Of a DNA stretch of 64,000 bases, positions 21,553 to 38,112 are shown in pieces. The notes beneath the pieces were generated by a model. It saw only the letters and a list, made by a program, of their open reading frames with translations. It ran no database searches and was not told where the DNA came from. The DNA is from Bacteroidia bacterium (GTDB lineage Bacteria > Bacteroidota > Bacteroidia > J057): positions 1 through 64,000 of the forward strand of contig JAIBAH010000014.1 of NCBI GenBank assembly GCA_019695295.1, in the 5' to 3' direction. The position numbers and the translations under genes were made by a program. The first letter of the stretch is position 1. Each line of letters begins with the position of its first letter.

Positions 21553-22989
21553 TTATCTCACCCATACTTCTACCCTTCTGTTTTTTTCTCTTCCCTGAGG
21601 CGTAAGATTGGTGGAAACCGGCATGATTTCTCCCAGTCCTTTTACCAGTACATTGGAAATTCCATGGGATTTCAGTTCCCCTGCGACTGCACTGGCGCGG
21701 CTTTCAGCAAGTTTCTGATTACTCGCATGTGAGCCCTGATCATCCGTAAAACCCAGCAAAATTACTTGTTTTCCTTTATATTCCGGTTTATTCCAGTGGT
21801 CTGCCAGCCTTTCAATATCATCCATTGCCTTATTATCAAGCGTAGCAGAGCCTGTGATAAAATGTACATTAAAATTTTCCCGGCTTGCAGCGGCTATAGT
21901 TTTGCTGTACTCTGCCGGAACATTGGATATATCGGAGATGACAGTTTTGGAATCCACAGTTTTTAATTCCGTGGAGATAAATCCGCTCTTTTCCACTATT
22001 TTTTCGCCTTCATCCGAGAGTGCAAAATGAATAAATTCCGTTGCGATATTTCCGGAAGCAGGGTTTTTGTAAAGATACAACCTGCGGGAAAGCGGATAAT
22101 CCTCAGTAGCAATTGTAAAAGCATTGGGATAAAGAGGTGTGAGTTTTTCTTCTTCTGAAACCGCAAGCGCCTTATTATTTCCTACCGAATTGAGGGAAAC
22201 ATATCCTATTCCGTTGGGGTCTTCGGATATCGCTTTTGCCATTTCCTCGTTGCTTTTATATTCTCTTATTCCGGGCGCGAAACTGTTTCCATTCAGTACG
22301 GATGACTGAAAAAAACCATAAGTACCGGATTTACTGTCTCTGCCGTACAGATTGATAGTACCGGATTTTTCACCGGAAATCTGACTCCAGTTATTTACAG
22401 CTCCGCTAAAAATTGCCTGTAACTGTGGTTTGGATATATTCTTCAGCGGATTGCTCCCGGATACGATTACCGCAAGCCCGTCAAGCCCCAGAATATGTTC
22501 ATTCAGATGAGAACGGATATCTCCCTTAGCCATCAGCTTTGCAGCCTCCGTATCATTTACCGGTCTGGAAGACATCCCGATAGCAGCAGAATTATTTTCT
22601 ATATCCTTAAAGGCATTTTCAGAATCTTCTGAGTGAATGGTAATAAATCCGGCTTCTTCATGGGAATCATGTGAATTTTTCAGCTTCCTGTTTTCTCCGG
22701 AAACCCTGATTTCTTTAGAATCCAGCTCCGTTATCCTGAGATTTTCATACCCGTGACTTTCCATAAAAGCCTTTACCAAATCAGGCATGAGCTTAGCCCC
22801 AATCGTATTGGAACCCGAAATCCTGAATAGTTCCTTGCCTTCCGGAGCTTCTGCCTCTGAATGAGAATTTCCAGGCCGTCCGTAAGGTTTAATAATCGTT
22901 TTCCATAAGAAAAAACAAATCACAAGGCCAATCAGTGACCCCCCAATAAACATGAGCGTAGCACTATTATTTCTGTTTTGTTCGGCCAT
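21553..22989 (-). CDS. PstS-like substrate-binding domain fused to an OmpA peptidoglycan-binding domain
   Basis: A 478-residue inner-membrane-anchored protein. Residues 12-32 form one transmembrane segment. Residues 50-340 resemble a phosphate-binding PBP-like domain (ELFRISGSNTIGAKLMPDLV; GRDSKSGTYGFF; NGIGYVSLNSVG). Residues 370-478 are an OmpA C-terminal domain, ending with LGFTDDQGSHASNQKLAESRA and GREKNRRVEVW, that binds peptidoglycan. No pstCAB transport genes are present, so this is not a classical ABC transporter subunit. A sensor, scaffold or stress role at the cell wall is possible. A -7-like box (TACTTTTG on the minus strand, 23018-23025) precedes the start, next to the dnaJ terminator. 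Confidence 0.82.
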   Translation of the reverse strand: MAEQNRNNSATLMFIGGSLIGLVICFFLWKTIIKPYGRPGNSHSEAEAPEGKELFRISGSNTIGAKLMPDLVKAFMESHGYENLRITELDSKEIRVSGENRKLKNSHDSHEEAGFITIHSEDSENAFKDIENNSAAIGMSSRPVNDTEAAKLMAKGDIRSHLNEHILGLDGLAVIVSGSNPLKNISKPQLQAIFSGAVNNWSQISGEKSGTINLYGRDSKSGTYGFFQSSVLNGNSFAPGIREYKSNEEMAKAISEDPNGIGYVSLNSVGNNKALAVSEEEKLTPLYPNAFTIATEDYPLSRRLYLYKNPASGNIATEFIHFALSDEGEKIVEKSGFISTELKTVDSKTVISDISNVPAEYSKTIAAASRENFNVHFITGSATLDNKAMDDIERLADHWNKPEYKGKQVILLGFTDDQGSHASNQKLAESRASAVAGELKSHGISNVLVKGLGEIMPVSTNLTPQGREKNRRVEVWVR

Positions 22990-24999: not shown

Positions 25000-26466
25000 T
25001 TATTTGTCAGTCATTTCGGGGAAAGTGGTCTTCAGGTAATGATTCAGCAAAGGAGCAAAAGTAAACGTAAGGTCTTTTTTATGATAGTGTGCAATCGAAT
25101 CCGGTGTATAAACCGCATGAAATACCTGACTTGCCTGTTCAGGATGTGCGGTTTTCAGTCCGTAATAATTCACCCGGAACCCATGATCTCCGGTAAGGAT
25201 GATGACCGCCGGGCGGGAACTGTTTTTCTGTATCGAACCGGCAAGATGAAGCCCCGTATCAAAGGCGTAAAGACACTGTTGAAGATACAAATCCGTAAGC
25301 GAAAGGCTTTTCATTTCTTCCTCACTGTACATCGTCCCGTCTTTTTTCAACCCAAACGGAGGGTGGGGAATCATAAAATGTGCATATATGAAACGGGGGG
25401 AGCCGGAAGGGCTTTTACTCACCGATTTCACCTCCTCCAGCAACTCAGAATGTACCTCCTCTCTTTGATTTTCTGCTTTGTTTTTCTTCATTTTTTTTAG
25501 CCATGTACCCGAGTACAAAAACGCCGGGAATCCATTGATTCTGTCAAAATAATCTATCTGAAATGATTTTACCTCCTGATTCAGCAAAGGGAAAATGGAA
25601 TAGTTAAAAAACTGATATCCCGCTTTTTCAAGGGTTTGAAAGACAATGGAATACTGAATCCCGTTTCTCATTTTATACAATGAAAAAGGATATTCCACTG
25701 TATCCATATTCATCACGGAATGAACCGATTCCAGTGTTTCTATAAACCGGGATGTGGCTGAATCCGAGAGAAAAAAATCATGGGCATGAAGGCTGTCTTT
25801 CCATGTTTTGGCTTCCTCCAGCTGATAGTTTTGAATCAGGGCAGAAGGCGACATCATCTCATCAAAAAGTAAAAAATAAATATCCGGGAGGGTTTCTTTC
25901 TGAGGAAATTTTTCCGGTAAATATTGATTGTATGATTGCGCCGTTTCCGGAAAATCGGGAGAACTGCCAAAGGTTTGAAAAGCCAGAAAAAGGGTTTCGG
26001 CTGTAACTATCCAGGAAATCAGGGAAAGGAAACCCGCTGATTTTGAAGGATTACGCTTGCTTTGATGATAGAATAAAACAATTCCCCCCAAAAACAAAAC
26101 CCCGCTGAGGATGAATAAGATAATGGAGGTATTTTCTGGTAAAACTTTAAAATGATATCCGGAAAGTGCGCTGATTTTTTGAAAAAGGAGTTCGGCAAAA
26201 GTAGCACCCAGAAAATAAAAAATCAGGCTCAGGCCAGCAGTCAATCCGGAAAAAATCAAATTACGACTGACTCCCCATAAACCCGCTGCCAATGCGGCTC
26301 CAATGCCTGCTACCATCAAAAAAGACAGGAGTAAATCCCCGGTTTTCCATAACCCTGCACTCTGAGCCGCCCGGTACAGAACGATACAGGCGGAAGCAAT
26401 GGAGATAAAGATTATAACTTTCAGAAGCGGAGAGCCGGGAATCCCGGCAGAAGCACGATTCGTCAT
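25000..26466 (-). CDS. Membrane-anchored sulfatase/phosphoglycerol-transferase-like enzyme
   Basis: A 488-residue protein with about five N-terminal membrane segments (residues 15-33, 45-66, 70-98, 113-134, 146-166). An alkaline-phosphatase-superfamily domain follows, facing the periplasm. The metal-binding start reads PDIYFLLFDEM (Asp202 probable ligand), YAHFMIPHPPF provides the family's HxPHxPF-like segment, and ILTGDHGFR carries the conserved Asp-His pair. This layout is that of LtaS/OpgB-type and other envelope polymer-modifying enzymes rather than soluble sulfatases. Its start is one base after the stop of the upstream methyltransferase (TAA-T-ATG), so translation is coupled. The substrate is unknown; a glycan or lipid head group is likely. 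Confidence 0.78.
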   Translation of the reverse strand: MTNRASAGIPGSPLLKVIIFISIASACIVLYRAAQSAGLWKTGDLLLSFLMVAGIGAALAAGLWGVSRNLIFSGLTAGLSLIFYFLGATFAELLFQKISALSGYHFKVLPENTSIILFILSGVLFLGGIVLFYHQSKRNPSKSAGFLSLISWIVTAETLFLAFQTFGSSPDFPETAQSYNQYLPEKFPQKETLPDIYFLLFDEMMSPSALIQNYQLEEAKTWKDSLHAHDFFLSDSATSRFIETLESVHSVMNMDTVEYPFSLYKMRNGIQYSIVFQTLEKAGYQFFNYSIFPLLNQEVKSFQIDYFDRINGFPAFLYSGTWLKKMKKNKAENQREEVHSELLEEVKSVSKSPSGSPRFIYAHFMIPHPPFGLKKDGTMYSEEEMKSLSLTDLYLQQCLYAFDTGLHLAGSIQKNSSRPAVIILTGDHGFRVNYYGLKTAHPEQASQVFHAVYTPDSIAHYHKKDLTFTFAPLLNHYLKTTFPEMTDK

Positions 26467-26467
26467 A

Positions 26468-27853
26468 TTATTTTTCTGACCATAAGTAAAGGGTTCTTTC
26501 AGAATCCGGAATCCGGACTTTGTTTTTCAGATGAAAATACTGACCGAATGTTTTTTCAAAATCGGCTTCGTTATAATAATCAAATATATCTTTTCGGGTA
26601 GCCAGTAATTTTTGTACCTGAGAGTCAGTTTTTGGGACAAACTCTATAATCAGATGAGGGGCAATCGAAGCGAACCACTTTGCCGTGTGGGAAAAAGGCA
26701 GATTATTACTGATACTGAGATGATGAATCAGCGCAAGCGCCATTACTACATCCGGTTTTCCCCTTTCTGTCATGGATTGTCTTTCTGTATTGGCCCATCC
26801 TATAGAAGGAGAAGGCTGAGTCAGGTCCATCACGAGGGGAAGGATGTGTTTTTCTTTTTGTTTTTTCACTTCGGCATAATTCACTTCCACTGCTGCAGGA
26901 TCAATGTCAAAACATACAGTAAAAATCCCTTTTCCGGACGCAATCCTGCTAAAAAAGCCTGTATTTCCTCCCAGGTCCCATACAGAACCGGGTTTTATCG
27001 CTTCAATCCACTCGCTGATGGTATTTTTTTTGGAGAGAAAGGCTGCAGACTGATAGTTATTCTGATTGGCTTCATAGTAATTTTTCCAGGTGCCTTCAGG
27101 ATTCCATGATAAATTCCGGATAAAACGAATCATTCCATCAATCATTCCTTTCAGATTCATCAGGGGCATTTTTACAGTTGAAGCCCTTTTCCCCTCTTCT
27201 GAATGTTCATATCGTTTCTGGCTTTTTGCATGCAGATGGATATTCATCAGGATAAAAGGAGAAAACCAAGTGCTGAAAGGGAGCAGTTTGCTCGTAAGCG
27301 GTAGCGGAATCCCGTCTATGAAGGTCTGCATGAAACGGTGGGTCTCAATGCCGGCCCTGGACATAAGCAGCAACGGAGCCAGAAAATGCCGGCAAAACTG
27401 CCCGTAAGCAATCCACGGAGTATCCTGTTCATAGATTTCGAAGGAAGAAATATCGATGAGTACTGCCTTATGATGATAAAACTGAATATTATAAGCGGAA
27501 GCGTCCTTGAGAATCAACCCCTTTTCCAGGGCTTCCATTTGTATCGCAAGGGTTGTCAGCGCAGCGTCTTTGTACTGACTAAAACTCCACTCATAAGGAT
27601 AAGAGATATAAGGAATGATTTCAGGTCTGAGGACTACCGGATAGTCTGTTACCGCAGCCTTTGGAAGTTGTACCGCTGTGGCGGGAAGCAGTTTTCCGGA
27701 CTTCACAAGGGAATCATAGAGTCCGGAATTCATTAGTTTTTCGTAATGTACAAGGTACTGAGGGGAAAGTCCCCGGTATAATTGCCCTTCTACTGAAAAA
27801 ACCCTTCCGTCTTTATCCCTGAAAGAAGCAGGATGAAAATTATATTTTTCCAT
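26468..27853 (-). CDS. Kinase-like domain fused to a class I SAM methyltransferase (NoeA-like)
   Basis: A 461-residue, probably cytoplasmic protein. The C-terminal half is a Rossmann methyltransferase: VWDLGGNTGFFSRI (motif I, residues 291-303), FDIDPAAVEVNY (motif II) and ALIHHLSI. The N-terminal half contains LKDASAYNIQF followed by VLIDISSFE. Asp117, Asn122 and Asp134 have the order and 5- and 12-residue spacing of the catalytic loop and metal-binding Asp in protein-kinase-like and aminoglycoside phosphotransferase folds. The whole resembles proteins annotated as NoeA-related methyltransferases. Whether the kinase-like part is active is not known. It sits between a 56-residue membrane protein (5 bp gap) and a membrane sulfatase-like enzyme (1 bp gap). 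Confidence 0.75.
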   Translation of the reverse strand: MEKYNFHPASFRDKDGRVFSVEGQLYRGLSPQYLVHYEKLMNSGLYDSLVKSGKLLPATAVQLPKAAVTDYPVVLRPEIIPYISYPYEWSFSQYKDAALTTLAIQMEALEKGLILKDASAYNIQFYHHKAVLIDISSFEIYEQDTPWIAYGQFCRHFLAPLLLMSRAGIETHRFMQTFIDGIPLPLTSKLLPFSTWFSPFILMNIHLHAKSQKRYEHSEEGKRASTVKMPLMNLKGMIDGMIRFIRNLSWNPEGTWKNYYEANQNNYQSAAFLSKKNTISEWIEAIKPGSVWDLGGNTGFFSRIASGKGIFTVCFDIDPAAVEVNYAEVKKQKEKHILPLVMDLTQPSPSIGWANTERQSMTERGKPDVVMALALIHHLSISNNLPFSHTAKWFASIAPHLIIEFVPKTDSQVQKLLATRKDIFDYYNEADFEKTFGQYFHLKNKVRIPDSERTLYLWSEK

Positions 27854-27858
27854 GATTA

Positions 27859-28029
27859 TCAGGAGTTTTCAGATTCTGAATCCTCATTTTCCTTTTTTCC
27901 TCCGCTGAACCAGCTTTTAAGTCTGTACCAGTTAAGCCTGATGAAAAAAGCAGCACCTGCAGCAAGCCCTATAATAGCCTGAACAATGATACTCCCTGAA
28001 CCCGGATCTATATATAAAAGACACTTCAT
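27859..28029 (-). CDS. 56-residue YIDPGSGS single-pass membrane protein
   Basis: A short gene below usual length cut-offs. It reads MKCLLYIDPGSGS, then a hydrophobic helix of about 19 residues (IIVQAIIGLAAGAAFFI), a basic patch (RLNWYRLKSW) and an acidic tail. The YIDPG(S/T)GS motif before one helix is, from memory, a recurring small-protein family found beside envelope polysaccharide and methyltransferase genes. The stop is five bases before the methyltransferase start, and a good promoter lies 18 bases upstream, so it is the first gene of the operon. The fold and placement suggest a membrane partner or anchor for the two enzymes downstream. Confidence 0.8.
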   Translation of the reverse strand: MKCLLYIDPGSGSIIVQAIIGLAAGAAFFIRLNWYRLKSWFSGGKKENEDSESENS

Positions 28030-28046: not shown

Positions 28047-28077
28047 CAAAATTAAGTATTTTTCCGGTATCAGCAAA
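28047..28077 (-). promoter_or_regulatory. Bacteroidota-type promoter of the three-gene envelope operon
   Basis: On the minus strand TTTG (28074-28077), a 19 bp spacer and TAATTTTG (28047-28054) match the consensus. The start codon of the 56-residue protein follows directly, giving a very short leader. Confidence 0.65.
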
Positions 28078-28326: not shown

Positions 28327-29247
28327 TTACGGTATCTTCTTAAAATTTGCGAGTACATAAGAATCCGGGAAGGCATTAAAATGCCACCATTCTCTTTTCA
28401 GCACCTTAAATCCCTCTTTCTCCATTGCTTCTCTTAAAATAAGGCGGTTATCCAGTTGTTTTTGAGTGATTTTCCCCTGTTTCAGTAAATCCGCTTCGAT
28501 ATCGGTACGGGCTTCAGTACCCAGGTGGTCAAAAGCTGTACCCATATCCAGCGGAACCCCCTTATCATCCACCACACTTAAATCCACTGCACAGCCATAA
28601 TTATGCATAGAGCCTTTGGCATCCGGTTTAGCTACATAATGTGCTTTATCCGTTCCCTTTACAATATCCCACATTTTTTTCTGAACCGTAAAAGGACGCG
28701 CGCCATCATACACAATAAAATGATAGCCTTTGTGTTTTTCCTGTAAGTTCTTCTGCGCTCTTTTCAGCATTTCTGCAACGTCTTTCTGAAGGTAACAGTC
28801 CGTTAAGTCTCCGTAAGCGTCCTTCCCCATAAAATTATCCGTAGTAGTATATTTCAAATCCGTTTTGATAGTGGGCTCAACCGTCCGGATGTTTACCAAT
28901 CCCATAGACTGCATCGTTTCCTCTAATGATTTAACCGGTTTTGGAGCAACTTCCTTTGAGGGATTAGGAGCATTTTTAGGAGCAGCCTCTCCCGGAGTGA
29001 CCTCTTTTTTGGGAAGAGCAGGTTCCGGAGATTGTGCCGTAATAACAGATGAATCAGGTGCTTCCCTCTGAACCATCACCGTATCCCGTTTAGTTTCTGC
29101 CGGAAAAACCGAATCCACTTTCGTTTGGGAATTTTCAGTATTTTCCGCACCGGAACAGCCCGCTATCCAAATTCCCATTATTATGACACAATAATACAAC
29201 CCTGATTTTATGTTAAGTCCCGTCATTGTACAAATTCTCTGATTCAT
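28327..29247 (-). CDS. D-Ala-D-Ala dipeptidase-like lipoprotein (peptidase M15D)
   Basis: A 306-residue lipoprotein: the lipobox IAGC follows a hydrophobic segment, then a Pro/Lys/Glu-rich linker (about residues 36-110) that could span the periplasm. The catalytic domain is of the VanX/DdpX type. Zinc ligands are His215 and Asp222 in SMHNYGCAVDLS and His289 in EWWHFN, with Glu286 as the base. VanX-type enzymes cleave free D-Ala-D-Ala; chromosomal versions usually serve in cell-wall turnover. No other vancomycin resistance gene is nearby, so resistance should not be inferred. A start at 29226 (residue 8) is equally plausible. Confidence 0.85.
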   Translation of the reverse strand: MNQRICTMTGLNIKSGLYYCVIIMGIWIAGCSGAENTENSQTKVDSVFPAETKRDTVMVQREAPDSSVITAQSPEPALPKKEVTPGEAAPKNAPNPSKEVAPKPVKSLEETMQSMGLVNIRTVEPTIKTDLKYTTTDNFMGKDAYGDLTDCYLQKDVAEMLKRAQKNLQEKHKGYHFIVYDGARPFTVQKKMWDIVKGTDKAHYVAKPDAKGSMHNYGCAVDLSVVDDKGVPLDMGTAFDHLGTEARTDIEADLLKQGKITQKQLDNRLILREAMEKEGFKVLKREWWHFNAFPDSYVLANFKKIP

Positions 29248-30970: not shown

Positions 30971-33900
30971 TTATTGTTTTGATTTCACAAATCTTCTGCT
31001 AACCTCAAAGTTTTCGGTTTTGCTTCTTACTCTCAGGCTGTAAGTACCTGTAGCAAGGTCTGATACATCGTAAGTAAATACTTCTGAACCCCCTTTGGTT
31101 GTAATATCCTTACGGTACACCATTTTACCGGTTACATCAAAAATCTCAGTAATGAATTCATGCTCAAACGGGCTGCTGATTTCAATATTAAGCTCTTTTA
31201 CTGTAGGGTTAGGATAAACCTCAGCAACCTGGAACATATCGTTCACCAAACGTAACTCAATCGTATTGGAGAAAGAAGAACGGCTATCCAGATCAACCTG
31301 ATTCAGGCGGTAATAAGCAATACCAGAAAGCGGCTTACTATCTACAAAAGCATAATCCAGTTTAGTATTGCTGTTTCCGTCTTTGGCAAGAGAAGCAACC
31401 TGACCTACTTTTTCAAAAGTAACTCCGTCTTTACTTCTCAATACTTCAAAGTGAGAGTTGTTCATTTCAGTAGCGGTAACCCATTGCAGATAATTTTGAC
31501 CATTGGAAGAGTATCCGCTTAATCTCAGATCTTCAACAGGGAGAGGTCCGCCGTTTCCGCTTCCACCTCCACCACCGGAGAAGGAAGAAACCATGTATTC
31601 GCTCATATGCTCAGTAGCCGTATTCGACGGATAAGGCTGAGCAGTATGATGCCACAGTCCCAGAGAGTTAGGGTTAACCATTGTAGTATGATAATAAACA
31701 TCAATATCACTGATTGTCACACCGGCATGACCTAATGAAGGAAGCGGGTTAAATCCTGTATGAAGTTTATAGTAAGTAATATCCTCAATTGTAGCCGTAA
31801 GAGGAGAAGAAGCATTAATCTGAGTGAAATCCTGAGTAGTGAAGTAAGTACGGATACTCATGTTGGAAGCAGGCTGAGTACCTCCATTAGCGGTATTTAT
31901 TCCTACCTCCCAGATTCTGTTCATGATATACCAATCCGGAGACTGAGGATAAGTCATATTTCCTGTAGAAGTATTGGTAATATGTGCAGCAGGACCTGTT
32001 ACATAATTCGGCTCAACTTCTACTTTCACATTGAATCCATTCGCACCCCATGTAGAACCAAAAGTACCTAAAGAAAGTGGATTTCCACCCTGATTCAGCG
32101 AAAGAATCAGATAATCGTTGGTAGTTACTGGATCATCATAATAGTAGTGTACCCAGTTTCCATCAACACAATATCCATTTGCAAAGAATGAACCAGCAAC
32201 ATCCGGAACCTTACCAATAGCAGGTCCGCCAGGGCAGCAGGGATAAGCAATCACTGTAACCTGATTTCTTGGAGCAGGACAAGCAGTAGAAAGGTTGGTA
32301 TTCATTCTTCCCAATGTCATTAAAGGAGAGCCGGTATTGGCAACAACCCAGTCAGCAGCCACATTATTATCATCTATATTTCTGATTACCCCAGCTCTAC
32401 CTGTAGAAGAAGGAATTGTACCAGACCAGTGAGCTGCAGTTACGCCGGATGCCGCAAGGAAAGTATAATTATTCATTGCTACTGCATCCAGAATTGTAGT
32501 ACCATTTTTGAGGATGAAGCCCGTAACTGTAGCGGATCCCAGAGGATTGTTTGTACCGCCAGTATGGAAATAAAGGTTTGCAGCGTTATTGGTACCTGTT
32601 CCAACGTGAATCAGCACAGATTGGCTTGCACCTACCATAATCGGAGTACCTGTCGGTAAGGTATAAACCCTTGCTCCTGTACCCACCAATTCCAGAGTAT
32701 ATCCCTGAATATCCACAGGGTTACTTCCGAGGTTAGTAATTTCCACGATATCATCATCAGTAGCGGCTACGTATGTCGGATAAGGGAAAGTAGCCCCAAG
32801 CCCTGTCTTGAATGCCTGAACCTCAGTAATTTTCAGAGAGGAATTCCGCTCAATCCAGTAGGTATAGGTAGTTCCGCTATTGGGAGCAGAAGTAAGGGAT
32901 GGTGTAGTAAAGGTATTTCCTGTTCCCAGTAAAGTACCACCGGTAGCAGCATCGTACCAGTAAGTGGCTCCTGTTGTACCACCCAATGCAGGAGTTGCAG
33001 TAAGGGTAGCAGCATTTCCGGAACAAACCGTAGTACTCACTGCTGTAGGAGAAGGCAATGAAGCATAATTTTGAACAGAGAACCCTGCACTGTTGTTGGT
33101 TGCATTTGCATCACCTGGCAGATTTGTAGTAGCCAAAAGGGTATATGTACCGTCAGCAGATAAATTCAGTGTAGCAGGAAGAGTAAATGTGGCAGACCCT
33201 AAGGCCGGAATAGTGCCGGTAAAAGTACCTGAAATGGATGCAGGAACCCCGCCTGTAACCGTTACAGGAATATTTGTGGCAGGAGAACACCCATAGTTAG
33301 TGATAGTAACCTCTACAGGTTGAGTAGCAGAAAGGTCACAGCCTCCGGCAATAGGGGTAATCGCTGAAACGCCCACATCACTTGCCGGAACAAGAATCTG
33401 AATATTGTCAATTCCTACTCCCTCAAACTCAACACTTGTATCCGCATGGAATCTGATTCTGAAACGTACACCAGATAACCCGATAACAGGAGTTAATGGA
33501 TGGGTAGCGGTACGCCATGGAGTATAGACTCCGTTAGACCATCCATTTTGATTGGCAACAGGGAAAGAACCGTTGAAGTTCCCTACATAGTTGTACCAGT
33601 TCAGTACGCCAACTCCCGTAGAGGTAGTAGTCCCTAAAGTAGTCCAGGTCGAGCCATTCGTACTATATTCTACCCAGAAACCATCCCATCCTGTTTCTGT
33701 GATGAAAGCCTGAGAGAAACTCAGAATAGGATCACATCCCGGAGGAATTGCGCTAAAGTCGAAACAGGGAGAAGCAAGCCAGGATTCTTCACTGGGGTTG
33801 TGATTTCCGGTAAGATTGGTAACCCAGGCTTTTGTACCTCCGGGTCCTGCACTATTGATGTTTATACCGGCAGGAGTTCCCCAGGCCCAGGAACTTGCTG

Positions 33901-36900
33901 TTCCGCCGGGTATCCATCCACCATTATTTGTTTCAAAATCCACAGAATACGGGAATGTATTAATAGCAGTTTGACCCGTGAACGAACCAGTTGCTGTATT
34001 ATTAGTAGCATTTGCGTCAGAAGCAAGCGTTACCGTTGCACTAAAGTTGGTTAAACCCGGATTGGAAGTATTTACCCCTGTAAAAGTAAGCGTTGTAGCG
34101 GCATACGATGCAATCAAGGACGGGTTTGTAATAGTATATGTACCTGTATTAGCACCCGATAAAGTCAATACCACACTTGCTGCATTGGCAGGAATCGCAT
34201 TGGTACCAAGGTTATTCAGAGAGATAGTTACGCTAGAATTGGCAGATAGTGCACATGGATTATTAGGAACTACCATATTGCTAAGTCCTGCATCCCAAGC
34301 TACAGGAGCAACAACCGTAATCACATAATCTTCGGTTTCTCCAGAACCCATATTCAAACAAGCATCTCCTGCCCCATTTTGATTTAGCGCACCTCTGGAA
34401 CGAACACGCATTCCGGTCTGACCTAAAGGAGCAGCAACCGGCACAGTAATATTCACCGTTGTAGGCGTTCCGCCAGGTATATTAGTTCCAGGTTGAGTCC
34501 ATTCTGTTGCCTCATATAGCCCATTTTGATTCCAGTCAACCCATACAGAAACAATTGCCCCTGTATAAACAGCTGGAGGATCAATGGTAACGGTAAACGG
34601 ATAGGTTGCACCTTGAACTAAAAACGGACCGGTAGGGAATGCAGAGTAGAATGGAGCTACAGTCGGATTAGTGGCCGCAGTATTATTGATATAAGTACCA
34701 AAACTTATCTCATTCATCATAGATCCCGCTCCACCTGCATTTGTCGTTGCACAATAACAGTTCACAAAAGAACTCAGCGTTACTTTCACAATTGCGGTTG
34801 AAGTCTGACCTCCACAAGTTACGATACAACGATACCAGGTATTTACGGTTACCCCACCCACTACCGTGTAAGAAGTGTTGGTAGCTGCTGCAATAGGAGT
34901 CCAAACCACACTGTCAGTAGAAGATTCCCACTGATAAGTCTGCCCTAATCCAAAAGTATTTCCGGTAAGAGAAACGGTAAAGTTAGTAGAAGGACAAGGA
35001 AGTGCAGGAGAAAGCGTAGCAGTACCCGCAACAGGAGGTGCAATACAAGGCGCAGCGGCAACAATATTCACCGTATAATCTTCAGTCTCTCCCCAGGTGA
35101 AAGTTCCACAAGGCGGCTGAGTTGCCGTTCCAAATTCAACCAATACCACCCGCATTCTTGTAAGTCCCGTCAAAGAAGTAACCGGAACCTGAAGTGAGCC
35201 AACTGCCGGATTAGGATTTGTAACCGTATTTGCAGAAGAAAGAGGGCCATTAAAGGCTCTTTCTGTAACAGGGTCGAATACCCCGTTTTGGTTATAGTCT
35301 ATAAATACGCTTACATGACAATTGTAAGAACCCAATGAATTAAACTGATAGATAGAAACCGGATAAGTTACCAACTGACTCAGGTTTACGGGACCTAATG
35401 CAGTATAATTTGTATAAGTTGCATTTGCCTGAGCGTTATTCGTCCAAGTAGAAGGAGTCGCAGCCACAAAACCGGGAGAAGTATTGGTAAAAGCACCCAC
35501 AGTTACCTGTCCAATGTCATCATCTATCGTACTTGTCGCAGCAGATGCACAATAACAGGATAAGAAAGAGTTCAGGTTTACTTTTACTATCGCAGTAGCA
35601 GACTGACCGCTACAGGTAGTAATGCAACGATACCATGTAGCCACGGTAATCCCTCCGGTTACAGTATAAGCCGAGTTAGTTGCAGCAGCAATCGGAGTCC
35701 ACGTAATACTGTCAGTAGAGGATTCCCACTGGAAAGTCTGTCCGGTTCCGATGGAGTTTCCGTTAAGACTTACAGAGAATGTGGTACTCGGACAAATCGG
35801 GTTTGGAGATGCTACAGCAGTACCGGCAATAGGAGGAGCGGTACAAGGAGCAGCAGCCACGATATTTACTAAATAATCTTCTGTTTCACCCCAGCCATAA
35901 GTACCACATGGGTTAATAGTGGCAGGAGTTCCGGTTTCTACATTCACTACCCTCATTACAGTATTGCCAGGAACCGCTGTAAGCGGGATGGTAATATTTC
36001 CGGTTTCTGTATGTGCCCCATTAGTAGCAGCAGGAGAGACATAGACCTCTTCCCCTGCCCCCGTAAATAAGCCATCCTGATTGTAATCTATAAATATCTT
36101 CACTGCATTATTGAGGTTTCCATTACAAGTTCCAATTTGAACAGAGAATGGATTTACAGAGGTCTGCATTAAGTTTGCAGCAGGAACTGAAGTTTTATAG
36201 TTTGAATATTGGTTCAGAATTGAACCGGGTCCGGGAGCAAGCGTTGTACAAGTTGAGGAGTTATTAATAGAACCCAGAGTTACATTAAATATCTCTTCAT
36301 CAAATGTACTTGTTGCATTGGAATTACAATAGCAGTTCATGAAAGTATTCAGATTTACCAATACTGAAGCCATCGCAGTCTGACCACCACAAGTAACGAT
36401 ACAACGATACCAGGTTGCGACAGTAATACCACCGGTTACAGTATATGAAGTATTTGTAGCCGCTGCTATAGGAGTCCATGTAATATTATCCGGAGAAGAT
36501 TCCCACTGATAAGTTTGTCCTGTACCGAAAGAGTTTCCGGTAAGAGAAACCGTAAAATTAGTACTTGGACATACCGGGTTAGGCGTTGCGCTCGCAGTAC
36601 CCGCAACCGGAGGAGCAGTACAGGGAGCTGCAGCAATGATGTTAATCATATAATCTTCCGTTTCCCCCCAGGTATAAGTACCACAAGGGTTTACTCCTGT
36701 AGCTACCGTAGTTTCTGTCAATACTACCCTCATTTTGGTTTGGCCCGGAATAGAAGTTACCGGAATCTGAACATTTCCTGTAGCAGGATTAAAATTGGGA
36801 GAGATATTGGAAGATGAAATAGCAGAGCTAAATACCATCTCAGCTACAGGGTCAAACTGCCCGTCGTGATTATAATCAATATATACTTTGGTCCAGCAGT

Positions 36901-38017
36901 TATAGGAGCCAAACTGATTGTACTGCCATATAGAGATGGGATACGTAACCAATTGGTTAAATGCCTGGGGAGCGAGTGCGCTAAAGTCGGTGTAAGTATT
37001 AATCGCTTGCGGATTATTAACCCAGGTAGCGGTATTGGCTGCGTCGAACCCTGCGGAAATATTCGTAAGCGGCCCGAATGTAATCTGCCCTATATCGTCA
37101 TCTGCAGTGGATGTAGCATTGGAAGCACAATAACAGTTTAAATAGGGATTCATCGTTACAAAGAGCGAGCTTGTAGGAGTAGTCTGTCCACCGCAGGTAA
37201 CCAAACAACGGTAATAAGTTGCCGTTGTTTGAGTGATATTCAAAACGCTGTTGTTTGCAAGCGGAATATTAGACCAGGTTGAGTTATTCGGGGAAGATTG
37301 CCACTGATAGGTTTGTCCTGTACCGAAAGCCACACCGTTAATGGAGAGCATAAAATTCGTATTGGGACAAACAGGATTGGCAGTACTTGCAACCACGCCG
37401 GCAGCAGGAGGAGCGGTACAGGGTACGGCAGGAATAAAGGTAATAGCCCCGATAAATCCGCGGGGAGTATTGGGCAGATTTGTAATTGTTCCGCCGTAAC
37501 CGATATTGGTACCGGTAATCAGGTTACAACCTCCACCCGGGAAAGTGTATGTACCTGCAGTCAGTGTACTATATCTTTGTCCGGTTACTCCGAAACAAAG
37601 GCCATAGGTTTGTCCGGCTGGAATGATAAGCGTAAGCCCGGTCAGCATCGATTGAGCAGTTGCACCCGAGCCTGTGGTGTTGGCAACCCCTGCTACTGAT
37701 GCGGTGGCGGCCTGAGTCCACCCGTTGGCTACAGAAATAGCACCCGGAGCACCGTTTACTGCGGTAGTTTTATACCACAATTCTGCAGTTACTGTTCCTG
37801 TAGTTCCGGTTACACCATTAACCCCCTGAATGATTACGTCAAAGGCGTTGGTATTTTGAAAGTTAAAGGTAATGTACTGCGAGGCATTATTATTGGCAAA
37901 GTTGGTTGTAATGGTAGTCTGCGCAAATGCAGAATTACTCATAAACAGCCATAATGCCAACGATAGCAGTAATCCAGACACCTGAGCAAGCATACTTTTT
38001 CGTATAGATCCTGTCAT
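30971..38017 (-). CDS. Giant T9SS-exported surface protein with Ig-like, GEVED, CARDB and lamin-tail domains
   Basis: About 2,348 residues from ATG 38017. The frame is open to 38083, but that start lies inside the promoter -7 box. A signal peptide is followed by a unique N-terminal domain and then four tandem units of an Ig-like domain plus a GEVED domain (IDYNxDGxF ... GETEDY). Next come a CARDB-like domain (DVGV...TITNYG), a jelly-roll segment (EESWLASPCFDFSA), a second CARDB-like domain, an Ig-like domain interrupted by a lamin-tail domain (KITEVQAF ... VEITNLG), and a type A T9SS sorting domain (YPNPTVKELNIEI ... LATGTYSLRV). No enzyme domain is visible. Adhesion, biofilm or matrix function is inferred from architecture. 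Confidence 0.88.
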   Translation of the reverse strand: MTGSIRKSMLAQVSGLLLSLALWLFMSNSAFAQTTITTNFANNNASQYITFNFQNTNAFDVIIQGVNGVTGTTGTVTAELWYKTTAVNGAPGAISVANGWTQAATASVAGVANTTGSGATAQSMLTGLTLIIPAGQTYGLCFGVTGQRYSTLTAGTYTFPGGGCNLITGTNIGYGGTITNLPNTPRGFIGAITFIPAVPCTAPPAAGVVASTANPVCPNTNFMLSINGVAFGTGQTYQWQSSPNNSTWSNIPLANNSVLNITQTTATYYRCLVTCGGQTTPTSSLFVTMNPYLNCYCASNATSTADDDIGQITFGPLTNISAGFDAANTATWVNNPQAINTYTDFSALAPQAFNQLVTYPISIWQYNQFGSYNCWTKVYIDYNHDGQFDPVAEMVFSSAISSSNISPNFNPATGNVQIPVTSIPGQTKMRVVLTETTVATGVNPCGTYTWGETEDYMINIIAAAPCTAPPVAGTASATPNPVCPSTNFTVSLTGNSFGTGQTYQWESSPDNITWTPIAAATNTSYTVTGGITVATWYRCIVTCGGQTAMASVLVNLNTFMNCYCNSNATSTFDEEIFNVTLGSINNSSTCTTLAPGPGSILNQYSNYKTSVPAANLMQTSVNPFSVQIGTCNGNLNNAVKIFIDYNQDGLFTGAGEEVYVSPAATNGAHTETGNITIPLTAVPGNTVMRVVNVETGTPATINPCGTYGWGETEDYLVNIVAAAPCTAPPIAGTAVASPNPICPSTTFSVSLNGNSIGTGQTFQWESSTDSITWTPIAAATNSAYTVTGGITVATWYRCITTCSGQSATAIVKVNLNSFLSCYCASAATSTIDDDIGQVTVGAFTNTSPGFVAATPSTWTNNAQANATYTNYTALGPVNLSQLVTYPVSIYQFNSLGSYNCHVSVFIDYNQNGVFDPVTERAFNGPLSSANTVTNPNPAVGSLQVPVTSLTGLTRMRVVLVEFGTATQPPCGTFTWGETEDYTVNIVAAAPCIAPPVAGTATLSPALPCPSTNFTVSLTGNTFGLGQTYQWESSTDSVVWTPIAAATNTSYTVVGGVTVNTWYRCIVTCGGQTSTAIVKVTLSSFVNCYCATTNAGGAGSMMNEISFGTYINNTAATNPTVAPFYSAFPTGPFLVQGATYPFTVTIDPPAVYTGAIVSVWVDWNQNGLYEATEWTQPGTNIPGGTPTTVNITVPVAAPLGQTGMRVRSRGALNQNGAGDACLNMGSGETEDYVITVVAPVAWDAGLSNMVVPNNPCALSANSSVTISLNNLGTNAIPANAASVVLTLSGANTGTYTITNPSLIASYAATTLTFTGVNTSNPGLTNFSATVTLASDANATNNTATGSFTGQTAINTFPYSVDFETNNGGWIPGGTASSWAWGTPAGININSAGPGGTKAWVTNLTGNHNPSEESWLASPCFDFSAIPPGCDPILSFSQAFITETGWDGFWVEYSTNGSTWTTLGTTTSTGVGVLNWYNYVGNFNGSFPVANQNGWSNGVYTPWRTATHPLTPVIGLSGVRFRIRFHADTSVEFEGVGIDNIQILVPASDVGVSAITPIAGGCDLSATQPVEVTITNYGCSPATNIPVTVTGGVPASISGTFTGTIPALGSATFTLPATLNLSADGTYTLLATTNLPGDANATNNSAGFSVQNYASLPSPTAVSTTVCSGNAATLTATPALGGTTGATYWYDAATGGTLLGTGNTFTTPSLTSAPNSGTTYTYWIERNSSLKITEVQAFKTGLGATFPYPTYVAATDDDIVEITNLGSNPVDIQGYTLELVGTGARVYTLPTGTPIMVGASQSVLIHVGTGTNNAANLYFHTGGTNNPLGSATVTGFILKNGTTILDAVAMNNYTFLAASGVTAAHWSGTIPSSTGRAGVIRNIDDNNVAADWVVANTGSPLMTLGRMNTNLSTACPAPRNQVTVIAYPCCPGGPAIGKVPDVAGSFFANGYCVDGNWVHYYYDDPVTTNDYLILSLNQGGNPLSLGTFGSTWGANGFNVKVEVEPNYVTGPAAHITNTSTGNMTYPQSPDWYIMNRIWEVGINTANGGTQPASNMSIRTYFTTQDFTQINASSPLTATIEDITYYKLHTGFNPLPSLGHAGVTISDIDVYYHTTMVNPNSLGLWHHTAQPYPSNTATEHMSEYMVSSFSGGGGGSGNGGPLPVEDLRLSGYSSNGQNYLQWVTATEMNNSHFEVLRSKDGVTFEKVGQVASLAKDGNSNTKLDYAFVDSKPLSGIAYYRLNQVDLDSRSSFSNTIELRLVNDMFQVAEVYPNPTVKELNIEISSPFEHEFITEIFDVTGKMVYRKDITTKGGSEVFTYDVSDLATGTYSLRVRSKTENFEVSRRFVKSKQ
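34306..37420 (-). repeat. Four tandem Ig+GEVED coding repeats
   Basis: Units of about 250-266 residues at roughly 37420-36623, 36622-35846, 35845-35051 and 35050-34306. Each begins C(T/I)APP(A/V/I)AG and includes QT(Y/F)QW(Q/E)SS, a TxYRC-type strand and CGGQ. Each ends in a GEVED domain with GETEDY. Units 2-4 are very similar over the Ig part (WTPIAAATN in all three), whereas unit 4 has a different GEVED first half. This indicates duplication with later divergence or gene conversion. Confidence 0.85.
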
Positions 38018-38080
38018 AGTAAAATTATTGAATTGAATAAAAATTATTATTAAAAATTTTAAAAGTTTAAAATCAAGTCC

Positions 38081-38112
38081 CAAAGGTAATATTTTGTTTA
38101 ATATTATCCAAA
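38081..38112 (-). promoter_or_regulatory. Bacteroidota-type promoter of the giant surface protein
   Basis: On the minus strand TTTG (38109-38112), a 20 bp spacer and TACCTTTG (38081-38088). Transcription would start near 38075 and leave a leader of about 58 bases before ATG 38017. Confidence 0.6.

Follow-up and report, generated by a model that had tools for sequence, protein, structure and literature searches.

Three open reading frames packed almost without spacing on the minus strand of a 64,000-nucleotide stretch of Bacteroidia DNA (hereafter the window) raise the question of whether their products act in one pathway and, if so, on what. A first-pass annotation, made from the letters of the sequence, had proposed an operon with a single promoter, and ORF calling confirmed its layout: a gene for a 56-aa micro-protein (27859-28029) is followed after 5 bp by a gene of 461 codons (26468-27853), and after 1 bp more by a gene of 488 codons (25000-26466). 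A scan for sigma-70 promoters returned no site around the operon start, so this promoter type was dropped and the Bacteroidota consensus was used instead. A candidate promoter of this type, TTTG-N19-TAATTTTG, was identified by its match to the consensus at 28047-28077 on the minus strand, ending 17 bp ahead of the micro-protein ATG. Such sites occur eight times in the window against 2.1 expected from shuffled sequence, and a TTTG-N20-TAATTTTG site was read by eye at the equivalent position, upstream of the micro-protein gene, in a sister genome (G002). The operon is flanked upstream by an M15 D-Ala-D-Ala dipeptidase gene and downstream by grpE and dnaJ, with no glycan gene among these neighbors. 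The dipeptidase (28327-29247, minus strand) has a lipoprotein-like start, and a similar gene lies upstream of the G002 operon.

Using tblastn against plasmids, we found that the 461-aa protein aligns with NoeA of Sinorhizobium meliloti (34.8% identity, 97% coverage, E = 3e-70), and still nearer relatives occur on a deltaproteobacterial plasmid and on those of Singulisphaera and Gemmatirosa. By homology, this protein is a member of the NoeA family. It had been described as a two-domain enzyme, which agrees with the kinase-type residues seen in its sequence between positions 27 and 134 and with a class I SAM methyltransferase fold predicted for residues 253-461. Four residues of the first region (R27, D117, N122 and D134) remain unchanged in every row of two alignments, one of 29 and one of 75 members, and are spaced as in protein kinases, with an Arg replacing Lys72 and the other three equivalent to D166, N171 and D184 (PKA numbering, which rests on this spacing and on PMC9758233). 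Structure comparison of the AlphaFold model (pLDDT 90.3) gave Z-scores of up to 18.9 for the methyltransferase domain, and its matches include the phosphate-methylating enzymes MEPCE (Z 18.0) and WbdD (Z 16.6-16.7). Because many other methyltransferases tie with these two, the predicted fold matches do not fix the substrate of NoeA. When the whole-protein model was searched, the methyltransferase domain filled the list of matches and no kinase chain was among those listed; sequence searches of the PDB yielded nothing useful. The literature cited here contains no report of kinase or methyltransferase activity for any NoeA homologue.

WbdD, from the E. coli O9a O-antigen system (PDB 4azs), resembles NoeA in joining a kinase and a SAM methyltransferase in one chain, and it phosphorylates a terminal mannose and adds a methyl group to the resulting phosphate (PMC3482155). 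The domain order is reversed, however: the methyltransferase comes first in WbdD and the C-terminus is a coiled coil (PMC3482155), whereas in NoeA the kinase-type residues (27-134) precede a methyltransferase domain that extends to the C-terminus (253-461). In addition, no micro-protein has been reported for WbdD. We consider WbdD to be an analogue of NoeA and do not claim homology across the kinase domain.

The third protein matches the Pfam Sulfatase family (3.6e-9). Its direct similarity to S. meliloti NoeB is weak (BLASTP: 30% over 80 aa, E = 6e-5), and an iterative profile built from this protein and the third genes of related loci reaches S. meliloti NoeB with 258.8 bits. On the basis of this profile, the third gene is a relative of noeB. 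The expected architecture was recovered in the AlphaFold model, which presents five long N-terminal helices followed by an alkaline-phosphatase-fold domain; we take the helices to be membrane helices, which would anchor the protein in the inner membrane with its catalytic domain facing outside. T244, within the sequence TLESVHSV, occupies the nucleophile position and is near-invariant in 38 homologues, and H363 and D427 are invariant in the same alignment, with D427-H428 as the Asp-His metal ligands. Formylglycine (S1) sulfatases carry the nucleophile motif C/S-x-P-x-R. This motif is missing from NoeB and, because the nucleophile position is taken by T244 rather than by Cys or Ser, NoeB is not a formylglycine sulfatase; the earlier label of sulfatase-like enzyme holds at the level of the superfamily only. 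The catalytic domain was found structurally closest to phosphoethanolamine transferases (ICR-Mc, MCR-1 and EptC, Z about 20-21), with LtaS slightly behind, and full-length MCR-1 was the top Foldseek match. Indeed, the window protein combines a bundle of predicted membrane helices, the alkaline-phosphatase fold and a Thr nucleophile, as do EptA/MCR-1 and LtaS/GacH, and it also presents the Asp-His ligands of EptA, MCR and LtaS. Identity to EptA, MCR-1, LtaS and GacH is nevertheless just 10-14% over the catalytic domain, and no EptA-type Pfam family matched. NoeB thus appears more akin to a phospho-transferase than to a sulfatase; we do not claim that it belongs to the phosphoethanolamine/phosphoglycerol transferases, to which it has no close sequence family match.

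The micro-protein begins with MKCLLYIDPGSGS... and has one hydrophobic segment, as anticipated for a single-pass protein. There is no Lys or Arg between the YIDP motif and this segment and there are five directly after it, which suggests that the N-terminus lies outside and the basic tail inside. No Pfam or NCBIfam family matched the micro-protein, and a text search of the open-access literature for the YIDPGSGS motif gave nothing relevant. In most loci its gene overlaps the start of the NoeA gene or sits a few bases away from it, an arrangement that would also fit a small leader that acts through its translation, coupling expression of the gene behind it, and that is not itself a partner of NoeA. 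We regard such a leader as very unlikely on several grounds. Eight columns, including Y6, D8, P9, G10, G12, S13 and Q17, are invariant across 18 divergent homologues, which indicates conservation at the level of the protein, and some variants carry an apparent cleavable signal peptide. Moreover, some loci (L103, L059 and L040) have the gene after NoeA or on the opposite strand, and in-frame fusions of the micro-protein to enzymes were found (see below). Judged from its conservation and linkage, the micro-protein is instead a conserved partner of NoeA that lacks a family entry of its own.

The same three genes are found in a rhizobium. The gene order in S. meliloti (CP140953) is nodL, a 71-aa hypothetical gene, noeA and noeB, and the window presents the last three in the same order. 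The hypothetical protein (MPIIMSVVGFLILSIVPAHAYLDPGTGSMLVQ..., with the motif YLDPGTGS) is a homologue of the micro-protein, and its gene overlaps the start of noeA. Because of the NoeA homology, the NoeB profile match and this homologous 71-aa gene in the same order, we identify the operon of the window, by sequence, as a noeA-noeB operon with its micro-protein. It differs from the rhizobial operon in lacking an adjacent nodL, in its non-rhizobial host and in its Bacteroidota-type candidate promoter, where the S. meliloti operon is under nod box n5. The joint function of the three genes had been presumed undescribed, but the set itself is known: noeA and noeB have been known as host-range nodulation genes since 1995 (Ardourel et al., as cited in PMC4053727 and PMC9048898), and a kinase-methyltransferase family with conserved neighbors, that of Lani_1194, was reported in 2022 (PMC9758233). 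Lani_1194 of this Legionella-based survey belongs to the NoeA family and shares the two-domain make-up and catalytic residue pattern of the window protein, its conserved neighbor Lani_1195 is a NoeB homologue, and two neighbors of the family are present in 65% and 38% of neighborhoods. The micro-protein may correspond to Lani_1193, the other neighbor in that survey. The effector role suggested there for Lani_1194 clashes with the wide distribution of the NoeA family. What was already established in these sources thus comprises noeA and noeB, the kinase-methyltransferase nature of NoeA and its conserved neighbors; the micro-protein is the less known component.

The distribution of the module was then analyzed across genomes. 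An alignment used as query recovered 586 NoeA relatives in genome contigs, while patterns based on single sequences were too specific and recovered none. Among 395 Bacteroidia genomes, NoeA was found in 26 and the micro-protein in 24, with both present in 22 (Fisher p = 6e-30, uncorrected for kinship); one genome (G148) possesses two NoeA genes with one micro-protein apiece. Of the four genomes with NoeA only, one (G229) is a weak partial match and the remaining three group together in the NoeA tree as a deep clade of their own. The two with the micro-protein only (G126 and G349) are weak matches with a GPGMG motif and no NoeA, and were set aside. Their 45-aa standalone proteins (L084 and L085, MELLYIGPGMG...), which have no NoeA in the vicinity, resemble a distant version of the micro-protein. 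In 80 named loci, drawn from Chloroflexota, Bacteroidota, Planctomycetota, Armatimonadota, Zixibacteria and others, NoeA is accompanied by the micro-protein in 71; of the nine that lack it, five start at a contig end or close to one. Among rhizobial plasmid records, 61 match NoeA and 61 match the micro-protein, with identical genus counts. The gene order is thus maintained across Bacteroidia and many phyla, which strongly supports the conservation that the first-pass annotation had proposed to check. In the NoeA tree, the window and its sister genome are placed among Chloroflexota and other phyla, apart from most Bacteroidia copies, with the forks left open; horizontal transfer of the window gene is plausible from this placement. 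Genes for nucleotide-sugar enzymes and glycosyltransferases are frequent next to NoeA loci, in a tally made without a control set.

NoeB follows this pattern less closely. A NoeB-family gene was detected in 52 of the 80 named loci and was missing from the stretch examined in the other 28. In the sister genome G002, the micro-protein and NoeA genes are followed directly by grpE, and the only NoeB relative elsewhere in that genome is 31% identical; in view of this arrangement, NoeB is not required at the locus. These observations, together with the unequal neighbor frequencies of the Lani_1194 family (65% and 38%, in PMC9758233), raise the alternative that the micro-protein and NoeA form the functional pair and that NoeB is a separate envelope enzyme sharing the neighborhood of glycan loci. 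We consider this alternative unlikely, since in most Bacteroidia loci NoeB starts a few bases from the NoeA stop, and since NoeB-type enzymes are linked to the micro-protein by a natural fusion and, in some gammaproteobacteria without NoeA, by adjacency. One genome (G145) carries a single 520-aa ORF in which the micro-protein is fused to a NoeB-type enzyme (L092:2822-4384). The predicted topology of this fusion, with the micro-protein running from outside to inside, then five helices and the catalytic domain outside, agrees with the way charges are distributed in each of the two parts. Apparent glycosyltransferase genes lie on either side of it. Among 229 gammaproteobacteria of the class of Wenzhouxiangella, all nine genomes with NoeA possess the micro-protein and six more possess it without NoeA, adjoining NoeB-like genes in three loci (L185, L186 and L190). 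Co-occurrence and fusions fit the proposal of a single pathway in which the micro-protein acts as a membrane partner; the absence of NoeB from the G002 locus counts against it.

The micro-protein was also associated with other enzymes. In the gammaproteobacteria without NoeA it also forms the N-terminus of two proteins resembling CDP-glycerol glycerophosphotransferases (L196:150-1451 and L197:1354-2727; PF04464 matches of 9e-15 and 7e-10) and adjoins a gene of the same type in L192. One Chloroflexota genome has a second, weaker match ahead of a PF01663 phosphodiesterase (L184). Other candidate fusions were rejected: the long ORFs of L103, L129 and L170 result from reading through from GTG or TTG starts further upstream and contain an internal ATG, and a micro-protein domain at the start of S. 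meliloti NoeB was unsupported (HMM E = 0.11). The common theme of these partners would be phospho-group chemistry on membrane-linked glycans. We tentatively suggest, as a possibility with somewhat less than an even chance, that the YIDPGSGS micro-protein serves generally as a membrane adaptor for several unrelated enzymes adding phospho-groups to membrane-linked glycans (NoeA, NoeB-type enzymes and CDP-glycerol transferases) and is an overlooked third component of the noeA-noeB nodulation operon.

Our results indicate that the noeA-noeB module is widespread and probably modifies glycans. In the mechanism that we propose, NoeA would act in the cytoplasm on a membrane-linked glycan or glycolipid, phosphorylating one of its sugars and then methylating the phosphorylated sugar; the methyl group would most likely go to the phosphate just added, in the manner of WbdD. 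The micro-protein would hold NoeA at the membrane or couple it to the membrane-bound glycan machinery and, once the product is exported, NoeB would transfer or remove a phospho-group outside through its Thr nucleophile. This scheme builds directly on gene order and conservation, on the homology, catalytic-type residues and predicted folds of NoeA and NoeB, and on the linkage and fusions of the micro-protein; from these we infer the substrate, the order of phosphorylation and methylation, the topology and the adaptor role. Taken as a whole, we judge its chances of being correct to be balanced. Alternatively, the module could modify a small secreted signal or lipo-oligosaccharide, comparable to the Nod factor, and not a cell-surface polymer. 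Modification of the Nod factor has been hypothesized for noeA and noeB as host-range genes (PMC9048898; PMC4053727), and in S. meliloti both come after nodL, a Nod-factor acetyltransferase gene. The module is also present, however, in Chloroflexota, Bacteroidota, Planctomycetota, Zixibacteria and other groups without a known Nod factor, often beside polysaccharide genes, and we find a secreted signal improbable as its general target. It is possible that the rhizobial noeA-noeB genes represent the re-use of an older glycan module. If the module acts on membrane-linked glycans as we propose, its presence across phyla offers a concrete biochemical test for a host-range phenotype reported, according to the later papers cited above, in 1995: a membrane-linked glycan that bears a methyl-phosphate, and a complex of three components, one of them encoded by the gene left unnamed in the rhizobial operon.

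Finally, two other minus-strand genes of the window were noted. A 478-aa protein (21553-22989) joins a PBP_like_2 domain of the phosphate-binding type to an OmpA domain at its C-terminus, and a repetitive protein of 2370 aa (30971-38083), encoded beside ruvC, is probably secreted and presents an apparent C-terminal sorting domain.
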